Shown piece by piece: positions 28,028 through 62,292 of a stretch of DNA of 64,000 nt (its first letter is position 1; each line of letters starts with the position of its first letter). Under the pieces are notes generated by a model. The model was not told where the DNA came from. It searched no databases and saw only the letters and a list, made by a program, of their open reading frames with translations. The stretch covers positions 1-64,000 of the forward strand of contig NZ_VJZZ01000015.1 in NCBI RefSeq assembly GCF_009659535.1. Reading direction: 5' to 3'. The position numbers and the translations under genes were made by a program. Source of the stretch: Aggregicoccus sp. 17bor-14 (lineage in GTDB: Bacteria; Myxococcota; Myxococcia; Myxococcales; Myxococcaceae).

Positions 28028-29077
28028 ATGGCCCCACGGGGACCCGACCAGCTCGATCTCTTCGGCGCTCCGACGGAGTCCGCCGCGCCGCGCCCGCCGC
28101 CGCGCCGCCGCGCAGGCGCCACGCGCAGCGAGCCGGTGGGCGCCGTGGCGCAGCCCGCCGAGGTGCAGGAGGTGGGCGCGCACCTGCCGCAGGGCGTGTT
28201 CCTGGGCACCTCCTCGTGGACCTTCCCGGGCTGGGAGGGAATCGTCTACGACCGCGCGGCCACCCAGGTGCGGCTCGCGCGCGAAGGGCTCGCCGCCTAC
28301 GCGCACCACCCGGTGCTGCGCACGGTGGGCATCGACCGGACCTTCTACGGGCCCGTGCCCGCGGCCACCTTCGCGGCCTACGCCGCGCAGGTGCCCGAGG
28401 GCTTCCGCTTCCTCGCCAAGGCCCACGAGGCCTGCACGCTCGCGCGCTACCCCCTGCACGCGCGCTACGGCGCGCACCGCGGCGAGCTCAACGCGCGCTT
28501 CCTCGATGCCGCCTACGCGCGCGACGCGGTGGTGGCCCCCTTCGTCGAGGGCCTGGGCGACAAGGCCGGCCCGCTCGTCTTCCAGTTCCCCCCGCAGGAC
28601 ACGGCGCAGTTCGGCGGCCCCGAGGCCTTCGTCGAGCGGCTGCACGGCTTCCTCGCAGCGCTGCCCCCGGGGCCCCTCTACGCGGTGGAGCTGCGCAACG
28701 AGGAGCTGCTCACGGAGGACCTCGCCGCAGCGCTCGCGGACGTGGGCGCGAGCCCCGTGCTCGCCGCCTGGCGCAACCTTCCCGAAGTGGAGCAGCAGGC
28801 CGAGCGCACCCGGGCGCTCGCCTCGCGCGCGCTGGTGGTGCGCTGGATGCTGCCGCCGCACCTCGGCTACGACGAGGCCCGCGCGCGCTACGCGCCCTTC
28901 CGCCACCTGGTGGACGAGGACCTCACCACCCGCGAGGCCCTTGCGCGCCTCAGCGTGCAGGCGGTGCGCGCAGGCCGCGCCGCCTTCGTCATCATCAACA
29001 ACAAGGCGGAGGGCAGCGCGCCCCTCTCCGCCCTCAAGCTCGCCGAGAGCATCGTGCTGGAGAACAGTGCGCCCTGA
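28028..29077 (+). CDS. DUF72 protein with N-terminal clamp-binding-like motif
   Basis: A 349-residue protein. Residues about 55-345 are a DUF72 (YecE-like) TIM-barrel domain, with GTSSWTFPGWEGIVY, GIDRTFYGP, FRFLAKAHE, LVFQFPP and YAVELRNE. The biochemical function of DUF72 is unknown. The first 55 residues are an extra, disordered Pro/Arg-rich leader that begins MAPRGPDQLDLFG. QLDLF is the textbook pentapeptide by which bacterial proteins bind the DNA polymerase sliding clamp, which hints at a role in DNA replication or repair. Start ATG 28028; monocistronic. Confidence 0.88.
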   Translation: MAPRGPDQLDLFGAPTESAAPRPPPRRRAGATRSEPVGAVAQPAEVQEVGAHLPQGVFLGTSSWTFPGWEGIVYDRAATQVRLAREGLAAYAHHPVLRTVGIDRTFYGPVPAATFAAYAAQVPEGFRFLAKAHEACTLARYPLHARYGAHRGELNARFLDAAYARDAVVAPFVEGLGDKAGPLVFQFPPQDTAQFGGPEAFVERLHGFLAALPPGPLYAVELRNEELLTEDLAAALADVGASPVLAAWRNLPEVEQQAERTRALASRALVVRWMLPPHLGYDEARARYAPFRHLVDEDLTTREALARLSVQAVRAGRAAFVIINNKAEGSAPLSALKLAESIVLENSAP

Positions 29078-29121: not shown

Positions 29122-29343
29122 ATGCATGCGGTGCTGATGGTGGTGGTGGCGACCCGCCTCGTGGTGGCGGGAGGGGCGGGAATGGAGGCGGAGGCGGCGG
29201 GGCGCCGTCCGCCGCCGGGGCGCACCTGGCGGGAGGCGGGAAAGAGTTTCGCCACCCTGAGAAAAGAAGTCGCCACGCTCCGGCAGGACTACGCACGCTC
29301 GCGCGAGGCGCAGGCCCGTGAGGCGCAGGCCGCCCGACGCTGA
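29122..29343 (+). CDS. small hypothetical protein with N-terminal hydrophobic segment
   Basis: A 73-residue ORF: a hydrophobic start (MHAVLMVVVATRLVVAGGAG) that could be a signal or membrane anchor, then a Gly/Pro/Arg linker and a charged helix rich in Lys, Arg, Glu and Gln (SFATLRKEVATLRQDYARSRE) likely to form a coiled coil. There is no family match I recognise. It sits directly after an exact sigma-54 core promoter and overlaps the start of the Smr gene by 26 bases. It may be a real small membrane protein or a leader ORF. Confidence 0.5.
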   Translation: MHAVLMVVVATRLVVAGGAGMEAEAAGRRPPPGRTWREAGKSFATLRKEVATLRQDYARSREAQAREAQAARR

Positions 29344-29680
29344 GGCTCCCGGCCCGGAGGACGCCGGGGACGCCGAGCCCTGGGACCCCGAGGCCCCCGT
29401 GGCGCTGCCGCTGGACGGCGAGCTGGACCTGCACCTCTTCGCCCCGCGCGACGCTCCACTCGTGGTGGAGGAGTACCTCGCCGCGTGCCGCGAGAAGGGC
29501 GTGCTGCAGGTGCGCATCGCGCACGGCAAGGGCACGGGCGCGCTGCGCCGCCGCGTGCACGGCCTGCTCTCGCGCCTCCCCGAGGTGCTTCGCTTCGAGT
29601 CCGCGCAGGAGCAGGACGGCGGCTGGGGCGCGACCTGGGTGTACCTGCGCGCGCCCGGGGCTCAGGAGAGCCAGAAGTAG
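29318..29680 (+). CDS. stand-alone Smr-domain protein
   Basis: A 120-residue protein whose residues about 30-115 form an Smr domain: LDLHLFAPRDAPLVVEEYL, then VRIAHGKGTGALRRRVHGLL, the H-G-K-G-x-G loop typical of the family. Smr domains (also the C-terminus of MutS2) nick or cut DNA and RNA, recently linked to ribosome rescue. The GTG at 29318 lies inside the preceding small ORF. The 3' end overlaps the convergent helicase gene by 19 bases. Confidence 0.85.
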   Translation: MRRRPPDAEAPGPEDAGDAEPWDPEAPVALPLDGELDLHLFAPRDAPLVVEEYLAACREKGVLQVRIAHGKGTGALRRRVHGLLSRLPEVLRFESAQEQDGGWGATWVYLRAPGAQESQK

Positions 29681-32364
29681 GCGGAGGCGATGAGCGAGCG
29701 CTTCTCCACGACCTTGGCCTTCTGGGTGAGGTCCGCGATGGCGCGGTCCTTCGCGAGGTAGCGCTTCTCCTCCTCGTTGCGCAAGCTCGCGAGCTTGCGG
29801 CGGTACTCGCGCTCGAGCCGCTCGGCGTTCGCGCGTGCCTTCACGCGCTCCGAGGGCTCGTCCACGCCCGCCACCTGCTTGCGCGCCTCCATCCACTGCG
29901 CGCGCGCCGACTCCATGCCCTGGCGCGACTCGAGGAGGCAGTCCTCGGCGTAGCGGTCCGCGCGCTCCTTGGCGAGGTCCAGCTCGAGCGCGTTCTTGCG
30001 CTCGGCGGCGCGCACCAGCTCGTCCTTCGCGGCGAGCAGCGCCTGTTCCTGCACGAGCGAGACGCTCACCGCGTCCGGCTGGCGGCGCTTCTCCTCCTTC
30101 GCCGCGAGGCGCACGAAGTGCTCGCCGTCCGCCACCGGCAGCGCGCGGAAGGTGCCGTCCCGGTCCTTCACCAGCACCAGGTGCACGAGCCTCTCCTCGG
30201 GCTTGAGGCCGCTCAGCTCGAACTTGTAGACGAACCACCAGCCCTCGCTGCCGGCGAGGCGCGCGAGGCGGCTCGGCAGCCCCGCCGCGTCCAGCTGCAG
30301 GTAGCTGACGGCGTCGTTGGTGCGCTCGCGCACGGAGTAGGCGGCCTTGGCCACCTGCAGCCGCCCGCTGGCCACGTTGTTGCCCAGCACCGAGCCGGTG
30401 AGGGCGCGCGTGGCCTGGCGGCGCTTGGCGATGGTCTCCTTCGTCTGCTCGCCCGCGACGCGCAGGCGCTTGCGAACGTCGCCGTCGAAGCGCTCGAGCA
30501 GGGTGCTGCGCGCCTCGGTCATGCGCGCGCTGATGCGGCTCTCCATGTCCGCGCGCAGGGCGTCGAAGGCGGCGTTGATGTCCTCGACCTTGCGGAAGCC
30601 CTGGTAGATCTCGAGCACGCGCCGCTCGAAGTCCACGCCGCTCTCCAGCGCGCCGAGGATCTCGTCCGAGGCGCCGAACACGCCGTCGAAGAGGTTGAGC
30701 TTCTTCTCCAGCAGCTCGTAGAGGCGCGCGTCCGCCGCGTTGGAGCGGTTGAGGAAGTTGAGCACCAGCACGTCGCGCTGCTGGCCGTAGCGGTGGCAGC
30801 GGCCGATGCGCTGCTCCACGCGCTGCGGGTTCCAGGGCAGGTCGTAGTTGACCAGGATGTTGCAGAACTGGAGGTTGATGCCCTCGGCGCCGGCTTCCGT
30901 GGAGATGAGCAGCTGGGTGCGGTCGCGGAACTCCTCCACCAGCGCGCGGCGCTCCTCGGGCGTGCCGGCGTCACCGGAGAGCAGGGAGATCTTCCCGCGG
31001 AAGCCGTGGTCGCTGAGCAGGTTGTAGAGGTACTCCTGCGTGCGGCGGCTCTCGGTGAAGATGATCGCCTTCTCGGGCCACTGGTGCGCGCGGGCGACGG
31101 TGAAGGTGCGGTCCAGGGCGCGCTTGAGCGCCTCGCCCTTGGCGTTCACCTTGATGGAGTCCGCGAGGTCCGCGTACTGGCGCAGCTCCCACAGCTCGTT
31201 CTGCAGCGTGCGCACGCTCACCGGGCGGGAAGGGTCGTCGCTCCACTCCTCGCCCTCCTCGGCGAACTGCTTCGCCTCCTCGGGCTCGAAGAGCGCCAGG
31301 GCCTGCGCGCCGAGCTGCGCCGCGTGCAGGCGCTTCTCCAGGTTGTCCGAGAGCCTGCGCAGGGTGGGGGCGATGGCGTAGGTGCTGGAGGCGAGCAGCT
31401 TGCGGTAGACGAGCGTGAGCAGGGTCTTCTTGCCCGGCTCGATGGCGGCCGCCTCCGAGCGGCGCAGGTACTCGCTCACCTTGTCGTAGAGGTCCTGCTC
31501 CTCGGGGGAGGGGGTGAAGTCCTCCACGATGCTGCGGCGGTTCGTGTAGCGCACGAACTCGCGCACCTGGCGGCGCAGGGTGCGCTGCACCACGGGGGCG
31601 AGCCGCTCCTTGAGCTCCTGGCCCGCGTCCTCGCGCAGGCCGCCCGCGTCCGGGTCCACCTGGTAGCGGCTGCGGAAGGCGTGCTCGGGGCCGAGGATCT
31701 GCTCGTCCAGCAGCGAGATGAGCCCGAAGAGCTCGAGCAGGTCGTTCTGCAGCGGCGTCGCGGTGAGCAGCAGCTTGGGGCGGCCCGCGAGCGAGCTGCG
31801 CAGCGCCTTGCCCGTCTTGTTGCTCGCCTTGTACGCGTTGCGCAGGCGGTGGGCCTCGTCGATGACCACGAGATCCCACGGAATCTGCGCGGTGAGGTCC
31901 GCCTTGTTCGCGGCGAAGGGGTGCGAGCAGATGACGGGGAAGGGCTGGTCGAAGCAGTTGCCGGTGGCGCGCACGGTGCGCCCGTCCACCAGCACGCTCT
32001 CCAGGTCGAACTTCTCGCGCAGCTCCGTCTGCCACTGCGCACGCAGGGTGGCGGGCGCGAGGATGAGGATGCGGTTCTTCCCCTCGGCGACGAGCTGGGC
32101 GATGACGATGCCCGCCTCGATGGTCTTCCCCAGCCCCACCTCGTCCGCGAGCATGCAGCCGCCGCGGCTCAGCGAGTCCATGGCGAAGGTGGCCGCCTCC
32201 ACCTGGTGCGGGTTCAGGTCCACGCGCGCGTCCGAGAGCGCGCTGGCGAGCCGCTTCTGCGTGTCACCGCTCTTCGCGGTGAGCTCCTCGGCGAGCAGCC
32301 GCTCGTGGAACCGGGTGAGCCCCGTCACACCCGCTGCTGACTCCACCCTTGCGAGCTCCGCCAA
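29662..32364 (-). CDS. SNF2/RapA-like DEAD/DEAH-box helicase
   Basis: A 900-residue SWI2/SNF2 ATPase. Walker A is in LADEVGLGKTIEAG, motif II is VVIDEAHRLRN, motif III LLLTATPLQNDLLELFGL, and the second RecA-like domain has LISTEAGAEGINLQFCNILVNYD-type sequence and QRIGRCHRYGQ. A long C-terminal helical region (from about residue 560) is Arg/Glu-rich. The RapA group remodels RNA polymerase or DNA-protein complexes. The TTG at 32364 is preferred because GGAGG lies seven bases upstream; an ATG 75 bases earlier (32439) has no ribosome site and encodes a Gly/Arg-rich stretch. The exact target is unknown. Confidence 0.88.
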   Translation of the reverse strand: MAELARVESAAGVTGLTRFHERLLAEELTAKSGDTQKRLASALSDARVDLNPHQVEAATFAMDSLSRGGCMLADEVGLGKTIEAGIVIAQLVAEGKNRILILAPATLRAQWQTELREKFDLESVLVDGRTVRATGNCFDQPFPVICSHPFAANKADLTAQIPWDLVVIDEAHRLRNAYKASNKTGKALRSSLAGRPKLLLTATPLQNDLLELFGLISLLDEQILGPEHAFRSRYQVDPDAGGLREDAGQELKERLAPVVQRTLRRQVREFVRYTNRRSIVEDFTPSPEEQDLYDKVSEYLRRSEAAAIEPGKKTLLTLVYRKLLASSTYAIAPTLRRLSDNLEKRLHAAQLGAQALALFEPEEAKQFAEEGEEWSDDPSRPVSVRTLQNELWELRQYADLADSIKVNAKGEALKRALDRTFTVARAHQWPEKAIIFTESRRTQEYLYNLLSDHGFRGKISLLSGDAGTPEERRALVEEFRDRTQLLISTEAGAEGINLQFCNILVNYDLPWNPQRVEQRIGRCHRYGQQRDVLVLNFLNRSNAADARLYELLEKKLNLFDGVFGASDEILGALESGVDFERRVLEIYQGFRKVEDINAAFDALRADMESRISARMTEARSTLLERFDGDVRKRLRVAGEQTKETIAKRRQATRALTGSVLGNNVASGRLQVAKAAYSVRERTNDAVSYLQLDAAGLPSRLARLAGSEGWWFVYKFELSGLKPEERLVHLVLVKDRDGTFRALPVADGEHFVRLAAKEEKRRQPDAVSVSLVQEQALLAAKDELVRAAERKNALELDLAKERADRYAEDCLLESRQGMESARAQWMEARKQVAGVDEPSERVKARANAERLEREYRRKLASLRNEEEKRYLAKDRAIADLTQKAKVVEKRSLIASAYFWLS

Positions 32365-32617
32365 GACCCGACCTCCGAGGTTGCTCAGACCTGCGCCCCT
32401 CCCCACGCCGCGGGGGGCCGCGCCACCGAAGCGCCGCATTGTGGGGAGCGGGTCCGGTCTGTAAAGGGGGTCTTCTCCAGGGCCGGTAAATCGGCTCCGC
32501 AGCGATCGGCGTCATTGAGGCCGGGCGGCGCGAAAGGGCCCTTTTTCGAGGGCCAAGACGCGCCAAAGATCAAGCCTTGACTGCGCTGAATTTTTTCTGC
32601 GCGCCGTGCCCCGCGTC
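32365..32617. other. intergenic region upstream of the helicase gene
   Basis: These 253 bases include a locally AT-rich GAATTTTTTC patch (around 32587-32596) and a short hairpin GGCCCT-TTTTCG-AGGGCC near 32537-32554. No convincing gene is present. A minus-strand TTTACAGA near 32458 may be the -10 element of the helicase gene, without a clear -35. Confidence 0.35.
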
Positions 32618-38325: not shown

Positions 38326-38993
38326 TGCCCGCGCGCAAGCTGTACTTCGAGGCCGTCCGCGTCGGTGACGAGCTGCCCGCGCTCGCCAAGAGCCCCATCG
38401 ACCGCGTGCAGCTCAGCCGCTACGCCGGCGCGAGCGGGGACTACAACCCCGTGCACGTGGACGAGCTCTACGCGAAGAGCGTGGGCATGCCGTCCGTGTA
38501 CGCGCCCGGCATGCTGATCATGGGCATGCTCGGCCAGCTGGTGAGCGACTGGGGACGCGGCGGCCAGCTGCGCCGCTACAACGTGCGCTTCATCAAGATG
38601 GTGTGGCCGGCGGACACGGTGGTCTGCAAGGGCCGCGTGACGGACCGCCACGGCCAGGGCGGGCGCTACTTCGCGGAGATCGACCTCTGGGCCGAGAACC
38701 AGCGCGGCGAGCTGGTGATGAAGGGCGCGGCGCAGCTGCAGCTCTTCTACTCGCTCGAGGACGAGAACCGGCAGCGCTCGGGCCAGGCGCCGCTGGTCGT
38801 GGACGTGCCGCGCGAGAGCCTGCGCGTGCCGGCCGCGGGCGGCGAGGGGGCCGCGGCCGCCCCCGAGACCCGGGGCGAGGAGACGGGGGCGAAGAAGGCC
38901 CCGGCCTCCGCGGCCGCGAAGAAGAGCAGCCCCCCGCGCGAGAAGCCCGCGGCGGCGCCCGCCGCGCCCGCGGCGAAGAAGCCCAAGAAGTAG
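38325..38993 (+). CDS. MaoC-type dehydratase (HadB-like) with Lys/Ala-rich tail
   Basis: A 222-residue protein. Residues about 10-140 are a MaoC hot-dog domain with the catalytic pair in AGASGDYNPVHVDELYAK (Asp and His), GMLIMGMLGQLVSDWG and YNVRFIKMVWPADTV. The remaining 80 residues are an Ala/Pro/Lys/Glu-rich low-complexity tail ending in AAKKPKK, not found in typical HadB (about 140 residues). The tail could bind membranes or nucleic acid. The start overlaps the HadA-like stop (TGATG), so the heterodimer partners are translated together. Confidence 0.87.
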   Translation: MPARKLYFEAVRVGDELPALAKSPIDRVQLSRYAGASGDYNPVHVDELYAKSVGMPSVYAPGMLIMGMLGQLVSDWGRGGQLRRYNVRFIKMVWPADTVVCKGRVTDRHGQGGRYFAEIDLWAENQRGELVMKGAAQLQLFYSLEDENRQRSGQAPLVVDVPRESLRVPAAGGEGAAAAPETRGEETGAKKAPASAAAKKSSPPREKPAAAPAAPAAKKPKK

Positions 38994-58804: not shown

Positions 58805-60547
58805 ATGTCCACCGGAACGCCGCCCGTGCGCCGCGGGGCGCGCACGCTCCCGCCCGAGGCGGAGCGTCTCGCGCGCACCGAGCCGAACACCGCCATCGTG
58901 CAGCTGCCCGAGGCGCCGCCCTCCAGCGCGCGCCTGTGCTTCACCGCGGGACCGCGCGCGGGCGAGGAGCTGCAGCTGCCGGAGCTGGACGAGGTGGTGG
59001 TGGGCCGCGCCGTGGACAACCCGGTGGCGATTCCCGACAGCTCGGTGTCGCGCAAGCACGCGCTGTTGCGGCGGGTGGGCGGCGGCTGGGCGGTGAGCGA
59101 CCTGGGCTCGGGCAACGGCACGCTGGTCAACGGCGAGCCGGTCGAGGAGGAGCGCCCGCTCGCGAGCGGCGACACGCTCACCCTGGGTGACTCCGAGCTG
59201 CGCTTCGAGGACGGCGGGCAGGCCACCACCCTGATGACGCTGCCGGCGCGGCTGCCGGTGCCTGCGCCCGTCACGGTGCACGCGGTGCCGATGGCGGACG
59301 CGGGCGGGGGGCCCGCGCGCCCCGGCCCCCGCGTGCGCAGCGCCCGGGCGAGCCGGGCGGCCGCGGCGAGCGCTCCGGAGGCGCAGGCGCTGCGCAAGAA
59401 GCGCCTGATGATCGCGGGCGGCGCGTTCGCGGTCCTGATGCTGCTGCTCATCGGGCTCAAGGCGAAGCTGGATGCGGACGCGCGCCACGCGCAGGAGAGC
59501 GCGCGGGTGGCCGCGGCGCAGCGGGCGCGGCTCGGCGCGCTGTTCCAGGAGAGCAAGAACCTGGTGCGCGAGGGGAAGTGGGCCGAGGCCAAGGCGCGCC
59601 TGGACACGCTCGCCGCCGCCCGGCCGGACTACCCCGGCGTGCAGGACTACCTGGAGCGCGCGGCGAAGGAGGTCCCCAACCAGGCGCACCTCGAGGAGGC
59701 GCGGGGCGCGCTCGCCAAGAGCGCGCTGGGCCCTGCCGCCATGGCGCTCGCGCAGGTGACGCCGGACACCACCCAGTACGACGCGGTGCGCGCGCTGCGC
59801 GCCCAGCTGCTCACGCTCTCCGGGCAGCGGGTGCTGGAGGCGAAGCGCCTGCTGGACGCGCGCGAGCTGGACGCGGCGAAGGCCGTCACGGCGGACGTGC
59901 TCGTGGCCTTCCCCGACCAGCGCGACGCGAAGCTGCTGGACGAGCAGGCCGCGCAGGCCATCCGCCTGCGCGATGCGCCGCCGCCCTCCGCGCAGGGCGC
60001 CGCGCCCAGGCCGTGGGAGCCCGCGGTGGCGCGCTTCATCGATGGGGATCTCACCGGCGCTGCCGCCCTGGCCAACGCCTGCGTGGGGCGCGCCCCGCGC
60101 TGCAAGGCGCTGCTCGGGCAGATGAGCGAGTTCGGGGGCCTGTACCGCAAGCTCGAGGACCTGGACGCGAAGGGGCTCGCACGCCTGCTCGCGCTGGACC
60201 GGGAGATCACGGACGGCCGGGCGAGCAAGATGGCCCGCACTGCGGGTACGCGCGCGGCGAGCATCTTCTACAAGAGCGCCTCGGCGGCGAAGGCGAGCGG
60301 GCAGTGGGGCAAGGCGGGCGAGTACGCGCGGCGCACCCTGCAGGCGGATCCCGGACACGCGGGCGCCTCGAACCTGCTCACGGAGCTTCGCACGCGGGCC
60401 AAGGACCTGTATCTCTCCGCCTACTCCCTCAAGGACACCAGCCCGGACGAGGCGCTCCCGCGCTTTCGCGAGGTGATGCAGATGACGGCACCTGGCGACG
60501 AGACCTACGAGAAGGCCAAGGGCTGGGTGGACAAGCTCTCCCGATGA
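58805..60547 (+). CDS. FHA-domain protein with membrane helix and TPR-like repeats
   Basis: A 580-residue protein. An FHA domain covers about residues 40-130 (VVVGRAVDNPVAIPDSSVSRKHALLRR, LGSGNGTLVNGEPV), and a membrane helix lies near 200-220 (LMIAGGAFAVLMLLLIGL). About 340 residues of helical hairpins (LVREGKWAEAKARLDTLAAARPDYPGVQDYL; YARRTLQADPGHAGASNLLTEL) resemble tetratricopeptide repeats. Its FHA is a paralogue of the one in the preceding gene. The stop overlaps the start of xseA by four bases, linking the cluster to exonuclease VII. Confidence 0.88.
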   Translation: MSTGTPPVRRGARTLPPEAERLARTEPNTAIVQLPEAPPSSARLCFTAGPRAGEELQLPELDEVVVGRAVDNPVAIPDSSVSRKHALLRRVGGGWAVSDLGSGNGTLVNGEPVEEERPLASGDTLTLGDSELRFEDGGQATTLMTLPARLPVPAPVTVHAVPMADAGGGPARPGPRVRSARASRAAAASAPEAQALRKKRLMIAGGAFAVLMLLLIGLKAKLDADARHAQESARVAAAQRARLGALFQESKNLVREGKWAEAKARLDTLAAARPDYPGVQDYLERAAKEVPNQAHLEEARGALAKSALGPAAMALAQVTPDTTQYDAVRALRAQLLTLSGQRVLEAKRLLDARELDAAKAVTADVLVAFPDQRDAKLLDEQAAQAIRLRDAPPPSAQGAAPRPWEPAVARFIDGDLTGAAALANACVGRAPRCKALLGQMSEFGGLYRKLEDLDAKGLARLLALDREITDGRASKMARTAGTRAASIFYKSASAAKASGQWGKAGEYARRTLQADPGHAGASNLLTELRTRAKDLYLSAYSLKDTSPDEALPRFREVMQMTAPGDETYEKAKGWVDKLSR

Positions 60548-62292
60548 CGAAGCGCAAGGGCGCCCCCGAGGCGCCGCCCCAGTCCCCGCTCCAGCAGGCC
60601 GACCTCTTCGGCACCGCTCTGCCGAAGAGCGCCCCTCCCACCCGCGCGGGGGCCGTGCGCCCTGCGGCCGAGCGTGCGCCGGCGCCGCCTCCCGCTCCCG
60701 CCCCTGCTCAGGAGGTTTCCCAGCCCCTCGCGCCGCTCGCGGGCAGCCCCGCCGCGAGCGCGCCCAACGGCGCCGCCAAGGCCGCGCGCACCGTGCTCAC
60801 GGTGGGCGAGCTCACCCGGCAGATCAAGAACACGCTGGAGACGAAGTACACGCGCGTCATCGTGCGCGGCGAGGTCTCGAGCTTCCGCGGTGCGAACGCG
60901 CGCGGGCACCTGTACTTCACGATGAAGGACGCGGGCGCCTCCATCGACGCGAAGCTGTGGGCCTCGCAGGCGGCGCGCCTGCGCTTCGCGCTGCGCGACG
61001 GGCTCGCGGTGGTCGCCGAGGGGAGCGTGGACCTCTACGAGCCCCAGGGGCGCTACAGCCTCATCGTGAGCCGGCTGGAGCCGGAGGGGGAGGGGGCGCT
61101 CGCGCTCGCCTTCGAGCAGCTCAAGGAGCGGCTCGCGGCCGAGGGGCTCATCGGCGACCGGCGCATCCGGCCGCCCAGGCCCGTGCCCTTCCTGCCCCGG
61201 CGCATCGGCGTGGTGACGAGCCGCACGGGCGCGGCGCTGCAGGACTTCCTGCGCGTGCTGCACTCGCGCCACCCGCGCCTGCCGGTGCTGGTGTGCGACG
61301 CGCGCGTGCAGGGGGAGGGGAGCGCCGAGGAGGTGGCGCGCGGCATCGAGCGGCTCGCCCGCACGGACGTGGACGTGATCGTGGTGACGCGCGGCGGTGG
61401 CTCGGTGGAGGACCTCTGGACCTTCAACGAGGAGCGCGTGGCGCGCGCCATCCACGCGAGCCCCGTGCCGGTGGTGAGCGCCATCGGCCACGAGATCGAC
61501 TTCACCATCGCGGACTTCGTCGCGGACCTGCGCGCGCCCACGCCGAGCGCGGCGGCCGAGCGGCTCGCGCCGGTGCTCGCGGACCTGCAGTTCACGCTCG
61601 CGACGCAGGAGGCGCGGCTGCGCCAGGCGGCGACGCGGCGGGTGCTGGAGCTGCGCGGGGGGCTGAGCGCGCAGTCGGGGCGGCTCGTGGACCCGCGGCG
61701 GCAGCTCGGGCAGCAGCGGCTGCACCTCTCCGAGCAGCTCGAGCGCGCGATGCGGGTGCTGCGCCCCTCCCTGCGCCAGCGGCGCGCGGGGCTGCAGGCG
61801 CTGGACGAGCGGCTGCAGCGCGCGGCGCCCCAGGCGCGGCTCGCCGAGCAGCGCCAGCGCCTGCTCAAGCTGCATGCGCGGCTCACCGAGGCCCTGCGCG
61901 CGCAGCTCAGCGCCCAGCGCGCGCAGCTCACGGGGGACCGCCTCCGGCTCGAGCGCGCCTCGCCCGCGGCGCTCGTGGCCGCCCAGCGCACGGCCCTGCT
62001 GGACCGGCGCGCTCGCCTGCTTGCTGGCGAGCGGCTCGCCCAGGGGCAGGCCCAGGCGCACTTCCAGCGGCTCGCGGCCCGGCTGGACGCGATGAGCCCG
62101 CTCAAGGTGATGTCGCGCGGCTACGCGGTGGCCTTCCGCAAGGCGGACGGCCGGGTGGTGCGCAGCATGGCGGACGTGCAGGTGGGGGACGCGCTGGGGG
62201 TGAAGTTCGCCAACGGCGGGGCCCGCACGCTGGGGGCCTGCGAGGAGATCGAGGCCACGGTGACGGCGCTGAGTGGGCCGGGCGACTGTTGA
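60544..62292 (+). CDS. xseA: exodeoxyribonuclease VII large subunit with long N-terminal extension
   Basis: A 582-residue XseA, longer than the usual 400-460. The family part begins near residue 80 (LTVGELTRQIKNTLETKYTRVIVRGEVSSF, OB-fold), followed by the catalytic core (RIGVVTSRTGAALQDFLRVL, VDVIVVTRGGGSVEDLWTFNEE, IGHEIDFTIADFVADLRAPTPSAAAE) and the coiled-coil C-terminus. The first 80 residues are disordered, Pro/Ala-rich and contain QQADLFG, close to the beta-clamp binding pentapeptide QL(S/D)LF. It overlaps the FHA gene, which is unusual for xseA. Exonuclease VII degrades single-stranded DNA from both ends. Confidence 0.94.
   Translation: MTKRKGAPEAPPQSPLQQADLFGTALPKSAPPTRAGAVRPAAERAPAPPPAPAPAQEVSQPLAPLAGSPAASAPNGAAKAARTVLTVGELTRQIKNTLETKYTRVIVRGEVSSFRGANARGHLYFTMKDAGASIDAKLWASQAARLRFALRDGLAVVAEGSVDLYEPQGRYSLIVSRLEPEGEGALALAFEQLKERLAAEGLIGDRRIRPPRPVPFLPRRIGVVTSRTGAALQDFLRVLHSRHPRLPVLVCDARVQGEGSAEEVARGIERLARTDVDVIVVTRGGGSVEDLWTFNEERVARAIHASPVPVVSAIGHEIDFTIADFVADLRAPTPSAAAERLAPVLADLQFTLATQEARLRQAATRRVLELRGGLSAQSGRLVDPRRQLGQQRLHLSEQLERAMRVLRPSLRQRRAGLQALDERLQRAAPQARLAEQRQRLLKLHARLTEALRAQLSAQRAQLTGDRLRLERASPAALVAAQRTALLDRRARLLAGERLAQGQAQAHFQRLAARLDAMSPLKVMSRGYAVAFRKADGRVVRSMADVQVGDALGVKFANGGARTLGACEEIEATVTALSGPGDC

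Follow-up and report, generated by a model that had tools for sequence, protein, structure and literature searches.

The window, that is the whole stretch of 64,000 nucleotides that was analysed, covers positions 1 to 64,000 of contig NZ_VJZZ01000015.1 of Aggregicoccus sp. 17bor-14 (assembly GCF_009659535.1). It contains a gene for a DUF72 protein, which is listed with its features and neighbours in Table 1. The protein begins with MAPRGPDQLDLFGAP. An in-frame stop codon lies two codons upstream of the ATG, with a GGAG also close upstream; the ATG at 28028 is therefore the natural start, and a wrong start codon was ruled out on the same grounds. The Pfam DUF72 domain spans residues 84-340 and scores 125.6 bits (cut-off 25.3). 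In Myxococcaceae, the DUF72 gene is followed by a Smr-domain gene and a convergent SNF2/RapA-like helicase gene, and in the window a two-component pair is also found among the neighbours. The neighbours vary outside Myxococcaceae, and no repair gene common to all orthologous loci was found. None of four simple patterns for a LexA-type (SOS) box matched the DNA upstream of the gene. A plasmid or phage origin was considered and rejected, as tblastn found no relative among plasmids, phages and viral contigs.

Table 1. Positions of the DUF72 gene, its features and its neighbours in the window
Feature	Position	Strand	Basis
DUF72 (PF01904) protein, 349 aa	28028..29077	+	ORF; Pfam
Leader, residues 1-56, first 24 predicted disordered	28028..28195	+	pLDDT; outside the motif unconserved
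Clamp-binding-type pentapeptide QLDLF, residues 8-12	28049..28063	+	Sequence; conserved in orthologues
DUF72 TIM barrel with family-wide conserved residues at strand ends	28196..29074	+	Model; conservation over 91 DUF72 proteins
Smr-domain protein, downstream neighbour	29318..29680	+	Pfam PF01713; homologue in 21 orthologous loci
SNF2/RapA-like helicase, convergent neighbour	29662..32439	-	Pfam PF00176, PF00271; homologue in 20 orthologous loci

The preliminary description had reported an exact QL(S/D)LF pentapeptide in a disordered leader ahead of the barrel, and a motif of the same kind in XseA of the window. The translated ORF confirms QLDLF at these residues, which agrees with the clamp-client pentapeptide pattern QPhix[LM][FL]. 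In the AlphaFold2 model (mean pLDDT 91.6), residues 1-24 have a pLDDT below 50 and the first barrel strand is formed by residues 57-61, which agrees with a placement in a leader that is predicted to be disordered. XseA, identified by Pfam as the exonuclease VII large subunit (60544-62292, + strand), likewise carries such a motif, QADLF, at residues 18-22 (60595-60609) of an N-terminal extension. The genome holds four DUF72 genes; the other three paralogues show no such motif at either end. A further pentapeptide, QLQLF, is encoded at 38733-38747 (+ strand) within another ORF (a frame of 245 aa), away from its termini.

DUF72 proteins were sampled from related genomes, a GTDB contig collection, plasmid and phage records and E. 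coli. Dereplication at 85% identity left 91 proteins, from which a maximum-likelihood tree was calculated. The window protein falls into a well-supported clade (100/99) of sequences from Myxococcota, Planctomycetota and one proteobacterial metagenome bin. Counts were made by clade membership, with one row that is cut by a contig end (L027) left out. Among the 40 dereplicated members with an intact leader, 37 carry Q-x-x-[LMI]-[FW] ahead of the barrel, two carry a hexapeptide version (QLDLPM, QLALQL) and one (L108) has no motif of any kind. Composition shuffles of the same leaders gave an expectation of 0.38 for the relaxed motif, and of 0.001 for the exact form QL[SD]LF, which was observed in 17 of the 40. 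The relaxed motif was found in none of the leaders of 49 other DUF72 proteins. In an alignment of orthologues, Q8 never varies, conservation of L11 and F12 is 90% or more, and positions 9 and 10 drift, as does the remainder of the leader; the rows of this alignment had been picked for having the motif, so 37 plus 2 of 40 is the fair figure for conservation. Within the clade, between 5 and 46 residues separate the motif from the barrel, and the motif is kept in orthologues from Planctomycetota and Plesiocystis at 44-47% identity. A chance occurrence of QLDLF is ruled out by this conservation together with the shuffles. Absence from orthologues had been named beforehand as evidence against a clamp-binding motif; nearly all orthologues of the clade have it. 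Fixed Q, L and F in a drifting leader is the pattern expected of such a motif.

The genome encodes one DnaN, which aligns with E. coli DnaN at 34% identity. All twelve residues of the subsite-I pocket, as listed for the E. coli protein in PMC11139829, are kept in the resident clamp: R152, L155, T172, G174, H175, R176, L177, P242, R246, V247, V360 and M362. Positions 344 and 346 differ between the two proteins. According to PMC11139829, QLDLF came out strongest among pentapeptides in several studies of such peptides.

Two further clades of DUF72 proteins carry the motif at the opposite, C-terminal end. One is formed by proteins of Bacilli, the other by YecE and its relatives, in which the form is weaker. 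All six of the sampled proteins from Bacilli end in the motif or a near form of it, with the terminal residues KQLDLF in Enterococcus, QMDLFSE in Listeria, QQLKLF in S. aureus, EQLSLF in Paenibacillus, KQLDFFNEF in Priestia and TQMDLF on a contig filed as Listeria phage. When viral contigs were searched with the alignment of the Bacilli proteins, there was no match. YecE ends in QQSSLF in E. coli, Salmonella and Klebsiella; the DUF72 proteins of Aeromonas and Nonomuraea end in QGVLPF (a hexapeptide pattern) and in PLTLF, which lacks the Gln. By the published consensus these tails are all weaker, and QSSLF of E. coli, in which position 2 is Ser and not aliphatic, fails it (PMC11139829). The remaining 37 DUF72 tails have no motif, and clades without a motif separate the two C-terminal groups on the tree. 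Clamp docking is not general to the family, as most of the other DUF72 clades sampled lack a motif at either terminus. It is difficult to account for motifs at opposite ends in different clades if the fold does not benefit from docking to the clamp.

Across all DUF72 clades among the 91 proteins, the polar residues Y107, K131, Q186, E221, R223 and R272 are conserved, and N324-N325 are conserved in most. In the AlphaFold2 model these residues lie at the C-terminal ends of the barrel strands or close to them, which in a TIM barrel is the usual site of activity. No histidine occurs among the columns conserved family-wide in the 91 proteins, which means that DUF72 lacks the metal site found in endonuclease IV. 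In a comparison of the model with solved structures, the highest Z scores, 20.9-22.2, were obtained for DUF72 entries. The best match is 1ztv (Z 22.2 over 243 residues, rmsd 2.9). The window protein thus shares its fold and the conserved residues of the barrel mouth with the DUF72/YecE/EF0366/TM1631 family (PF01904; PDB 1ztv, 1vpy, 1vpq), and differs from its relatives in Bacilli and the YecE group in that the motif is located in an N-terminal leader and not at the C-terminus.

The DUF72 protein is quite probably a sliding-clamp client whose barrel is held near DNA and acts on a lesion or on a damage-associated end or nucleotide. It is most likely a clamp-tethered enzyme at lesions or stalled forks. 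The flexible N-terminal leader would dock QLDLF into the hydrophobic pocket of DnaN, and docking would keep the TIM barrel close to the DNA in the wake of the replication fork or where repair takes place. The conserved mouth, made up of Tyr, Lys, Gln, Glu, two Arg and Asn-Asn, could then act on the DNA lesion or the damage-associated end or nucleotide. Published hints in favour of this proposal are an enrichment of DUF72 genes near polB2 operons and a UVDE-like fold, both reported in PMC11791011, and the modelling of Tm1631 that is described below. Binding of the clamp by the leader is strongly predicted from its sequence; that the clamp is actually bound, that DNA is the substrate, and the chemistry are what we infer for this protein.

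The nature of the barrel allows two other readings. In a narrower form of the proposal, the protein would belong to the endonuclease IV/UVDE superfamily as a lesion nuclease or abasic-site lyase that works without a metal. The clamp would bring it to damaged DNA, which it would nick, with the invariant Lys131 as the catalytic residue. The nearest solved fold outside DUF72 is indeed endonuclease IV (5zhz, Z 15.1), UV-damage endonuclease also shares the TIM barrel (4gle, Z 13.6), and the strand ends hold an invariant Lys along with Tyr, Glu and two Arg. Published modelling of Tm1631 proposed that it binds DNA in the manner of endonuclease IV (PMC3828134). However, identity to both enzymes is 10-15%, there is no Pfam match to them, the metal-binding histidines are not conserved, and IolE and sugar isomerases and epimerases, at a Z of about 14, come within about 1 of endonuclease IV. 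A nuclease or lyase of this kind is a serious possibility, although somewhat short of probable. The same structural matches, with rhamnose isomerase and tagatose epimerase among them, would suit a metabolic sugar-phosphate isomerase or epimerase, in which case the terminal motif would be due to chance or bind another partner. Since isomerases and epimerases score as well as the DNA endonucleases, the fold gives no preference for DNA or for sugars as the substrate. A metabolic enzyme is very unlikely in view of a motif conserved far above chance that recurs at opposite ends in different clades, and of DUF72 genes located next to lexA, imuB and dnaE2.

These gene clusters bear on another alternative, namely that the protein is a non-catalytic or accessory subunit of the translesion mutasome, a clamp adaptor that replaces ImuA in some cassettes. 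On the Desulfosarcina plasmid Do28_1 (L203:963-6738) the order is lexA-DUF72-imuB-dnaE2, and in the Myxococcota genome G068 (L215:3700-9050) DUF72 directly precedes an imuB-like gene and dnaE2. The linkage was thus seen twice, in two phyla, with a DUF72 of another, motif-less clade. The ImuB-like product of each cluster has a clamp-type motif of its own (QRPLF and QLELF), and the DUF72 protein of the imuB-dnaE2 cluster matches nothing but DUF72 in Pfam. In both clusters, DUF72 occupies the usual place of imuA. The window gene, in contrast to the DUF72 genes of these ImuA-ImuB-DnaE2-type cassettes, is not beside imuB or dnaE2, and the conserved barrel mouth looks catalytic in the model; we regard a mutasome subunit as unlikely. 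For the clamp-tethered enzyme proposed here, a wider reading may be put forward tentatively, and with some doubt. DUF72 would be a family that processes damage at the replication fork, in E. coli and Bacilli as well, in which the clamp tether was gained or moved more than once, lying at the N-terminus in Myxococcota and Planctomycetota and at the C-terminus in Bacilli and YecE, or in which the gene instead adjoins that of an ImuB that binds the clamp; the metal-independent, Lys-based active site would be new to the endonuclease IV superfamily.

The family is widespread, occurring in nine of 14 control genomes and in many bacteria and archaea, and its structures have been solved since 2004, yet it is without an assigned function. 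A conserved clamp tether gives it a concrete place in the cell and a partner. A clamp tag in several unrelated branches of DUF72, including that of E. coli, suggests a role in DNA repair or damage tolerance. The preliminary description had deduced a replication or repair role for the domain from the pentapeptide; this is supported by the C-terminal motifs of Bacilli and YecE and by the DUF72-imuB-dnaE2 clusters, and has to be qualified for the domain as a whole, since the motif is restricted to some clades. With its motif the window protein would join the beta-sliding-clamp clients, a known class, and may possibly have been noted earlier. Pol II, Pol IV, Hda, UmuC and DnaE likewise have a QLDLF-type pentapeptide in a disordered terminal region; here the predicted motif is attached instead to the TIM barrel of DUF72. 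In the literature covered, clamp binding by DUF72, YecE or YunF is nowhere stated. The 2001 paper that defined the motif lies outside this literature and may mention DUF72, and priority is uncertain for this reason. The N-terminal position of the motif is that of Hda (PMC11139829).

Some other DUF72 loci are of note. In one genome, a generic and a motif-bearing DUF72 gene are located within about 4 kb (L210; G086:C14). In the Rhizobium phage RHph_TM61 (L140), a DUF72 gene overlaps a gene annotated as a DNA recombination-mediator protein. A motif-bearing DUF72 gene (L060:6939-7886) abuts a downstream 2-thiouracil-desulfurase/DUF1722 (YbgA-like) gene; ybgA of E. coli adjoins the photolyase gene.
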